From contig NZ_CP087585.1 of the NCBI RefSeq assembly GCF_022200785.1, forward strand, positions 1,736,001 through 1,800,000: a stretch of DNA of 64,000 nt, written 5' to 3'. Within the stretch, counting starts at the first letter, position 1; the number at the start of each line of letters is the position of its first letter. The position numbers and the translations under genes were made by a program. Under the pieces are notes generated by a model. That model worked only from the letters and a program-made list of their open reading frames with translations, had not been told where the DNA came from and did no database searches. This document shows positions 35,022-35,404 of the stretch, one piece after another. The stretch is from Pedobacter mucosus. Lineage in GTDB: Bacteria; Bacteroidota; Bacteroidia; Sphingobacteriales; Sphingobacteriaceae.

Positions 35022-35130
35022 ATTTATAAAGAAGTGGCGAGAGACTGGCTCAGCGACCCACTGGCAACCCTCAGAAAGAGAAGGTGCCAATTCCAGTCCA
35101 CATAACATGGTGTTATCTGGAGATATAAAT
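35022..35130 (+). promoter_or_regulatory. SAM-I riboswitch upstream of metY-metX-hom
   Basis: The aptamer core reads GAGACTGGCTCAGCGACCCA, then CTGGCAACC and later GGTGCCAATTCCAG, which matches the conserved P2/J and GGCAACC...GGTGCCAA..TCC features of SAM-I (S-box) riboswitches. The closing stem P1 is ATTTATA (35022-35028) with TATAAAT (35124-35130). It should sense S-adenosylmethionine and lower expression of the methionine genes downstream. No clear expression-platform terminator follows P1. Instead, a short Cys-rich ORF starts 7 bases after it, and metY starts 275 bases downstream. Confidence 0.92.
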
Positions 35131-35137
35131 TTTACTG

Positions 35138-35266
35138 ATGAAAACATTAAATCTTCAATCGCAAAGCGAAATAAATCAAAATAACAATAAATTAGAATTC
35201 ACTTCTATTTTATTCGGTTGTTATGATAAGCAGGCGGTTACTTGTATGTGCTGTTGCATATCATAA
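35138..35266 (+). CDS. 42-codon Cys-rich ORF between the SAM riboswitch and metY (possible leader peptide)
   Basis: ATG 35138 opens a 42-codon frame that ends FGCYDKQAVTCMCCCIS at TAA 35264-35266. Five of the last 15 residues are Cys, four of them within CMCCC. The N-terminal part is polar (Asn/Gln/Ser). It begins 7 bases after P1 of the SAM riboswitch and lies 138 bases before the metY start. A cysteine-codon cluster in a short ORF ahead of sulfur genes is the expected design of a cysteine-responsive attenuator; polycysteine leaders of this kind are known in mycobacteria. Translation has not been shown, and a chance ORF is possible. Confidence 0.6.
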   Translation: MKTLNLQSQSEINQNNNKLEFTSILFGCYDKQAVTCMCCCIS

Positions 35267-35301
35267 TTCAAAATCTTCCTCTTTTGTTTCTTTATCAAAT
35301 T

Positions 35302-35338
35302 GGAAGGCCCTTTAACGGAGGGTATGCCCTAGTTGGAT
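35302..35338 (+). promoter_or_regulatory. possible alternative hairpins between the leader ORF and metY
   Basis: AGGG (35319-35322) can pair with CCCT upstream (35308-35311) or with CCCT downstream (35327-35330), giving two mutually exclusive short stems. This could be the switching part of an attenuator for the Cys-rich leader, or a translational control. The stems are only 4 bp, so the evidence is weak. Confidence 0.3.
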
Positions 35339-35404
35339 AACAAAATTCACACATTTTGTATTCATACTTATCAATCAACAGTTAAACTTTCAAAAATTAA
35401 TATC

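Follow-up and report, generated by a model that had tools for sequence, protein, structure and literature searches.

How does a SAM-I riboswitch control a methionine operon when the structures through which this aptamer family commonly acts appear to be missing from the leader? The question is raised by the region ahead of metY-metX-hom in Pedobacter mucosus (genome of 4.93 Mb in a single contig), which lies within a 64,000 nt stretch of DNA, referred to here as the window, whose positions are used throughout. From 5' to 3', the leader consists of a SAM-I aptamer, 6 nt, a 42-codon open reading frame (ORF) and a set of conserved hairpins, followed by the three genes. A sequence-only reading of the window had interpreted this arrangement as control by two signals, SAM and cysteine, an interpretation that the comparison of related sequences described here supports. 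The features concerned are listed below.

35021..35131, + strand: SAM-I (S-box) riboswitch aptamer (full-length match to Rfam RF00162 at 70.9 bits, where the gathering score is 44.4)
35124..35131, + strand: 3' strand of aptamer stem P1, UAUAAAUU (Rfam alignment; ends 6 nt before the ATG of the ORF)
35138..35266, + strand: leader-peptide ORF of 42 codons with the tail TCMCCCIS (from the sequence, with homologues in frame)
35243..35257, + strand: Cys/Met codon cluster TGT ATG TGC TGT TGC, the proposed stall site (from the sequence)
35244..35261, + strand: hairpin H0, made by the Cys codons (35244-35250 with 35255-35261)
35275..35306, + strand: hairpin H1, with a pyrimidine-rich loop (CUUCC at 35275-35279 with GGAAG at 35302-35306)
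35308..35322, + strand: hairpin H2 (35308-35312 with 35318-35322)
35405..36715, + strand: metY, O-acetylhomoserine sulfhydrylase (TIGR01326, 679.1 bits, cut-off 495.1)
36772..37872, + strand: metX, homoserine O-acetyltransferase (best family TIGR01392, 341.2 bits, below the curated cut-off of 500)
37999..39246, + strand: hom, homoserine dehydrogenase (NF004976, 320.7 bits, cut-off 205)

By covariance-model score, 35021-35131 is a member of RF00162 and is predicted to bind SAM; the sequence-only reading had placed the same aptamer at 35022-35130. In the Rfam alignment, P1 is formed by 35021-35028 paired with 35124-35131, and all other Rfam matches in the metY leader fell far under their own gathering scores. 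The genome contains two SAM-I aptamers above the cut-off, the one studied here and another ahead of metH. Classical SAM-I riboswitches, which share this aptamer family and likewise precede methionine-pathway genes, have a terminator/anti-terminator platform, whereas none was found in the P. mucosus metY leader. As had been claimed at the outset, no intrinsic terminator (GC hairpin plus U run) was present in 34800-35450, and the leader therefore does not have the form of a classical intrinsic-terminator attenuator, in which such a hairpin precedes the gene; terminator-like sites were also without enrichment across 83 leaders (4, against 5.1 expected). In 83 leaders, the P1 3' region was no more complementary to sequence beyond the ORF than chance would give (mean z 0.03), and a classical anti-sequestor was rejected on this basis. 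Given the lack of a terminator and of excess downstream complementarity to the P1 region, the leader appears to be without the usual SAM-I expression platform, whether terminator/anti-terminator or anti-sequestor, that uses the P1 3' strand, in agreement with what had been proposed before these searches. Such P1-based platforms are common in the SAM-I family, but not required.

Immediately upstream, on the same strand as metY (33493-34608), is a gene for a cystathionine gamma-synthase/lyase-like PLP enzyme (MetB-like), which reached the curated cut-off of none of the 25 NCBIfam families shown. Two marginal matches to the Flavo-1 RNA were also seen in the window, at 34765-34831 (+) and 28982-29051 (-), with 43.7 and 45.0 bits against a gathering score of 42, and the former sits between the MetB-like gene and the riboswitch.

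The reading we favour, with a probability of roughly 60%, has the metY leader acting as a two-stage sulfur sensor, in which SAM gates the leader ORF and stalling on Cys, perhaps also Met, codons turns metY on. In the first stage, high SAM would close P1 over the ORF initiation region and hinder initiation, and low SAM would admit ribosomes, such that the leader ORF is translated. In the second, a scarcity of charged tRNA would cause ribosomes to pause on the Cys/Met codons near the end of the ORF, opening the hairpin formed by the Cys codons and resetting those downstream (H1 and H2 in Pedobacter, others in other clades), which would allow expression of metY-metX-hom. Either high SAM, leaving the leader without a ribosome, or plentiful cysteine and methionine, leading to run-off, would put the leader in the off state. 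Since no terminator was found, the final step would be Rho-dependent termination or control of later translation. We infer translation of the ORF, gating by P1, stalling and the ON direction from the architecture and its conservation. The proposed direction (off without a ribosome, off after run-off, on when stalled) draws both on analogy with mycobacterial polycysteine ORFs, at which stalling reportedly turns genes on, and on the expectation that a SAM-I switch ahead of a methionine gene should turn that gene off when SAM is high. In this way the cell would probably read SAM and cysteine together on one message.

The first stage depends on the position of the ORF relative to the aptamer, which was compared across the best 80 named loci from a search with a MetY alignment (more existed). 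An Rfam SAM aptamer above the gathering score was present in 71 of these; three lacked upstream sequence (L129, L169 and L198) and six had no aptamer above that score (L136, L148, L175, L178, L183 and L191). Being chosen by MetY similarity, this set over-represents groups near Pedobacter and overlaps in part with the genus set below, and its counts are not of independent events, many of the loci being related. A control set was formed from 50 SAM leaders of other genes, with L020, whose contig ends soon after the aptamer, left out. An ATG lies at +5 to +15 past the aptamer in 67 of the 71 named metY leaders, mostly at 7-10 nt, compared with 20% expected from shuffles and seven of the 50 other SAM leaders, and this ATG is kept even in clades whose ORF has no Cys run. 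The aptamer thus abuts the initiation region of the upstream ORF (uORF), as in a riboswitch-gated uORF. With the ATG fixed so close behind the aptamer, the P1 3' strand at 35124-35131 falls within the ribosome's start space on the ORF, making it a candidate for the SAM-controlled part of the initiation region, and we infer that SAM binding blocks the start of the leader ORF.

The same spacing bears on whether the two elements are instead independent modules, the riboswitch acting on metY alone and the Cys leader peptide forming a separate attenuator with no SAM gating of the ORF. Such separation is suggested by L178, whose Cys/Met ORF comes without a detected aptamer, and by L141, in which 528 nt separate the end of the aptamer from metY and the Cys ORF is elsewhere. 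It is nevertheless an unlikely arrangement for these leaders as a whole: the near-fixed distance from aptamer to ATG is maintained when the Cys run is lost, the Cys-run ORFs of L145 and L149 stay directly after the aptamer even with metY some 0.9-1.0 kb downstream, and no other expression platform was found.

The second stage of the two-stage sensor depends on the Cys codons. The 42-codon ORF ending in CMCCCIS that had originally been noticed 7 bases after the aptamer was confirmed at 35138-35266, at a distance of 6 nt from the Rfam end, and encodes the peptide MKTLNLQSQSEINQNNNKLEFTSILFGCYDKQAVTCMCCCIS. This has no Pfam match, and a search of 5.8 billion proteins returned a single relative, a 42-aa hypothetical protein of Pedobacter mendelii to which the leader peptide of L036 is identical. 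No second copy was found in the P. mucosus genome, in which the next peptide match had an E value of 0.86. A generic search of this genome with the Cys-codon pattern was uninformative (216 matches with up to two mismatches, against 43 for a reversed control), the window's site being the sole exact match among the matches listed.

Leaders were taken from 35 of 36 same-genus genomes, including P. mucosus; G035, which is 81% complete, had no aptamer match. A search of 59 relatives with the peptide matched the aptamer-linked place in 15 same-genus genomes besides its own, 14 of them with E values no higher than 3.4e-7 and the fifteenth, G002 (partial), with 0.008, and further aptamer-linked metY-type leaders were added from 19 other genomes of the genus. 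The gene that follows is metY in 32 cases and metX in three, and in all 35 an ATG situated 6-10 nt past the ATAAAT of P1 opens an ORF of 25-47 codons. At least four Cys in six residues are found in 24 of the 32 metY leaders and at least three in 28, and every one of the 32 has CC or CxC inside the last 16 residues, the least Cys-rich tails being SMCYCML, CMCFGK, CMCYGI and CMCHGMYQS. Tails of the metX-type leaders are CMCCRIY (L064), YMCCCLN (L078) and SICFSMC (L075), and two loci of other families have other Cys-rich tails, CCMCICCPCC (L085) and CCCCCC (L097). When these two distant loci are counted with the same-genus set, 26 of 34 leaders reach four Cys in six and 30 reach three, compared with 0 and 2 of 1700 shuffled leaders. 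Stops, frameshifts or the loss of the Cys cluster in orthologues had been named as what would mark the ORF as a product of chance; the genus instead keeps both the ORF and its in-frame Cys cluster, as do many loci elsewhere in the Bacteroidota.

Among the 71 named metY loci, a Cys-dense ORF beside the aptamer was found in 45 at four Cys in six and in 51 at three, against 0 and 21 of 3550 dinucleotide shuffles of these leaders; none of the 50 SAM leaders of other genes has one at either cut. Counting all frames, there are 48 Cys-dense stretches, and 45 of them share the frame of an ATG at +4 to +16; the three off-pattern stretches are in L187, which has a proper one as well, and in L141 and L173, where the Cys ORF lies at another distance. 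The 45 Cys-dense loci include records named Pedobacter, Mucilaginibacter, Hymenobacter, Pontibacter, Adhaeribacter, Chryseolinea, Chryseosolibacter, Thermonema and Splendidivirga, along with metagenome-assembled genomes (MAGs) named as Cyclobacteriaceae, Flammeovirgaceae, Microscillaceae, Saprospiraceae, Lewinella and Haliscomenobacter. At the level of sequence, the pairing of aptamer and Cys-run ORF in metY leaders is confirmed as real and far above chance. In the 51 loci the ORF is 27-64 residues long; 45 of them have their last Cys within 0-2 residues of the stop, and the longest run is of nine consecutive Cys (L159). These are the properties of a Cys-rich leader ORF, short and with clustered Cys codons conserved in frame, and it precedes a gene of sulfur metabolism, metY in the window and metY or metX in relatives.

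Cys makes up 33.9% of the last 15 residues of 64 named uORFs, against 1.1% of the body, and Met is similarly concentrated, at 9.8% against 0.5%. The Met of the tails is inherited within clades, yet it also occurs in clades with different peptides, as RMRM in Hymenobacter, MRMRMHMH in L192 and MRMRMPM in L311, and it may therefore be that Met, the second sulfur amino acid, is also read by the leader peptide. A point against the two-stage sensor is that metY under a strict AND gate would stay off when methionine is short but cysteine abundant, unless the Met codons count as well. The fuller scheme, in which a leader peptide that gauges charged tRNA for both Cys and Met is itself either blocked or licensed by SAM, so that a single RNA would control direct sulfhydrylation through three inputs, is tentative, its chances being put at a little under evens. 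Its extension across Pedobacter, Mucilaginibacter, Hymenobacter, Pontibacter, Saprospiraceae and relatives, with the start codon of the ORF as the expression platform, is held with the same reserve, at slightly worse than an even bet.

A further possibility is that the uORF works by translation per se, through protection from Rho or RNase or through reinitiation, with the Cys run only slowing or ending translation and sensing nothing. The start of the uORF is indeed more widely kept than the Cys run, and PMC11260477 describes a uORF of M. tuberculosis that is under the control of a B12 riboswitch and has to be translated for the next gene. Runs of up to nine Cys codons, mostly adjoining the stop, and the enrichment of both sulfur amino acids suggest sensing, however, and among the SAM leaders examined Cys runs occur only before metY or metX, which leaves an effect of translation alone quite improbable. 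The ORF could instead have a functional Cys-rich miniprotein as its product, metal- or thiol-binding for instance and co-transcribed by happenstance, which would accord with the in-frame conservation of a short, Cys-dense peptide; this is very improbable given that the body sequence and the length are unconserved, that the Cys are often homopolymeric and near the stop, and that the database search returned a single protein, that of P. mendelii. A chance ORF in a structured, UG-rich leader, which the participation of the Cys codons in H0 might suggest, is strongly disfavoured, since 0 of 5250 shuffles reached four Cys in six and 23 reached three, and 45 of the 48 runs are in frame with the aptamer-proximal ATG.

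Across the genus the middle of the leader peptide changes completely while the frame is kept. A codon comparison of 18 close relatives gave a pN/pS of 0.65 in frame, against 1.07 and 0.63 in the shifted frames, and strong protein-level selection on the ORF body was not seen. The alignment across relatives that the sequence-only reading had suggested thus bore out the frame and the Cys cluster within the genus, but found the ORF body to be under little protein-level constraint. Outside the tail such constraint appears slight, with signs of constraint on the RNA at both ends of the ORF. This is expected of a leader peptide, yet is no proof of coding, a weight carried by the argument from frame.

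Resetting of hairpins by a paused ribosome, as the two-stage sensor would require, presupposes structure at and beyond the Cys codons. The alignment A2 comprised 39 tails from the genus and its nearest named relatives, leaving out the diverged tails of L065, L131 and L078, that of L075, which has no Cys run, and L121 and L122, which repeat L037 and L065. In these sequences 93.3% of cells pair in H0, with one pair changed on both sides, and 91.3% in H2, where five of six counted pairs are changed on both sides. Both arms of H1 are invariant in 39/39, such that its pairing is unproven inside A2; matched changes were seen by eye in L131 and L078, outside that alignment. Together, the three hairpins exceed all 500 column shuffles in paired cells (94.5% against 87.3%), in cells changed on both sides (64 against 26.4) and in covariation score (0.246 against 0.126), but not in pairs changed on both sides (6 against 5.7) or in further pair types (15 against 17.0). 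Slid versions of the helices have 27-55% of cells paired and 2-17 changed on both sides. Possible alternative hairpins had been suggested at 35308-35330; that at 35308-35322 is real and covaries, whereas the alternative AGGGTATGCCCT, though present, has a 3' half that is not kept across the genus when A2 is inspected by eye. Also considered and rejected was a helix between the conserved GGUAYGC and the H0 3' arm, which is good in P. mucosus but has an A-C mismatch in many relatives (by eye).

The whole P. mucosus leader folds better than its shuffles (z -3.24), as does the tail alone (z -2.12), although no intact aptamer is seen in the minimum-energy structure of the full leader. Over 83 leaders, many of them related, sequence downstream of the ORF stop folds more stably than its shuffles do (mean z -1.50), and pairing of the Cys codons with that region is slightly above chance (mean z -0.58). 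By eye, CAGCAACA-like strands are partners of Cys codons (for example UGUUGCUG) in L133, L137, L138 and L152, and Mucilaginibacter loci, L139 and L156 among them, have a strand with two possible partners, the Cys codons or a strand further on, which would constitute an attenuator-like choice.

Even at the looser cut of three Cys in six, 20 of the 71 named loci have no Cys-dense ORF beside the aptamer. In Algoriphagus and its relatives (L170, L174, L182, L195 and L197), an ORF starts 6-9 nt past the aptamer and lacks a Cys run, that of L197 extending beyond the metY start. Five of seven Sphingobacterium-named loci also lack one, their Met/Arg-containing tails being RMR in L154, L157, L166 and L167 and MSMRMRMHMHLPTC in L192; the remaining two have two CC pairs (L130) and CCC (L193). 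At L311 a Met/Arg-containing tail, SMRMRMPMSCFSYMCA, similarly takes the place of the Cys run beside a SAM aptamer. The distribution was also assessed in an even sample of the phylum, 158 genomes in which 129 aptamers were covered (29 new loci and 100 stretches); a further 16 of the matches listed, which had no locus and came for the most part from families already represented, are not in this count, and the list did not extend to all matches. Among the aptamers covered, a run of four Cys in six was found in two of 70 metY leaders, namely two of 12 in the class of P. mucosus and none of 58 outside it by a tally of kinship, and in none of those of metX (0/16), metH (0/25), metB-like (0/12) or other genes (0/6). 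A phylum-wide feature is ruled out by the two of 70, and with no case outside the class of P. mucosus, the aptamer-linked Cys run is, on these sequences, a feature of particular groups. Leaders without a Cys run, of the Algoriphagus type and in most Sphingobacterium, and the MAG with a Cys/Met ORF but no detected aptamer (L178) count against the two-stage sensor.

The enterobacterial mgtA/MgtL and corA/CorL leaders likewise combine a leader peptide with a sensing RNA and respond to two signals, as proposed for metY, but differ in using Mg2+ and Pro codons, in being Rho-dependent and in not being such a metabolite riboswitch. Polycysteine ORFs of mycobacteria and other actinobacteria resemble the metY leader in comprising a short ORF with a Cys run near the stop, before sulfur genes and without an obvious intrinsic terminator, and differ in phylum, in the genes concerned (cys operons and cbs) and in having no riboswitch mentioned in front of them in the relevant passages of PMC1262725 (Seliverstov 2005), which describe the actinobacterial Cys leader peptides as being without conserved terminators. 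Those of mycobacteria are leaderless, to go by the title of Canestrari 2020 as cited in PMC13236596. In the uORFC-8-2 motif, a Cys uORF upstream of cysS in Rhodobacterales, the Cys codons also sit in a stem, but there are two of them, with an intrinsic terminator and U run, a tRNA synthetase gene and no aptamer, in the part of PMC8632094 devoted to it. The M. tuberculosis B12 riboswitch of uPPE2-ppe2 is alike in having the initiation region of a short ORF, which controls the main gene, as its first target, and unlike in ligand, phylum, overlapping stop/start coupling and the lack of an amino-acid codon run, as set out in sections of PMC11260477. Tandem riboswitches and platform classes are dealt with in PMC2258182, and leader peptides in Bacteroidetes are mentioned in general terms in passages of PMC9723704 and PMC7366714. 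SAM-I aptamers and polycysteine leader ORFs are each of a known kind, and no description of a Cys leader peptide joined to a SAM riboswitch in Bacteroidota, nor any report of the combination, was found in the open-licence literature as sampled, including the excerpts of PMC11109978 and PMC6429828.

If the two-stage sensor is correct, the fusion of these elements with near-fixed spacing in many genera would represent a logic gate, with the end product read via the RNA and the sulfur supply via the ribosome, and would identify the element that replaces the missing SAM-I expression platform of these metY leaders. It would also provide a clear rule for annotating small ORFs, that of P. mucosus having returned one database relative.

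Several related arrangements were observed alongside. The metY leader of L178, a Bacteroidota MAG, has the Cys/Met-rich ORF MNIKQHQNSVKMHAMFHSMCMCCMYMCM at 1154-1240, with no Rfam SAM aptamer in 700-1620, and closer to metY has TGTTGCTC opposite a perfect GAGCAACA arm. Same-genus genomes (several of L005-L034) have more SAM-I aptamers, ahead of what by eye are SusC/TonB-type receptor and cysteine desulfurase-like starts, and in two leaders of such other genes, L011 and L034, there are ORFs with three clustered Cys at other positions. L085 has two SAM-I aptamers about 1.4 kb apart, at 201-312 and 1756-1868, one before a MetB-like gene and the other before metY.
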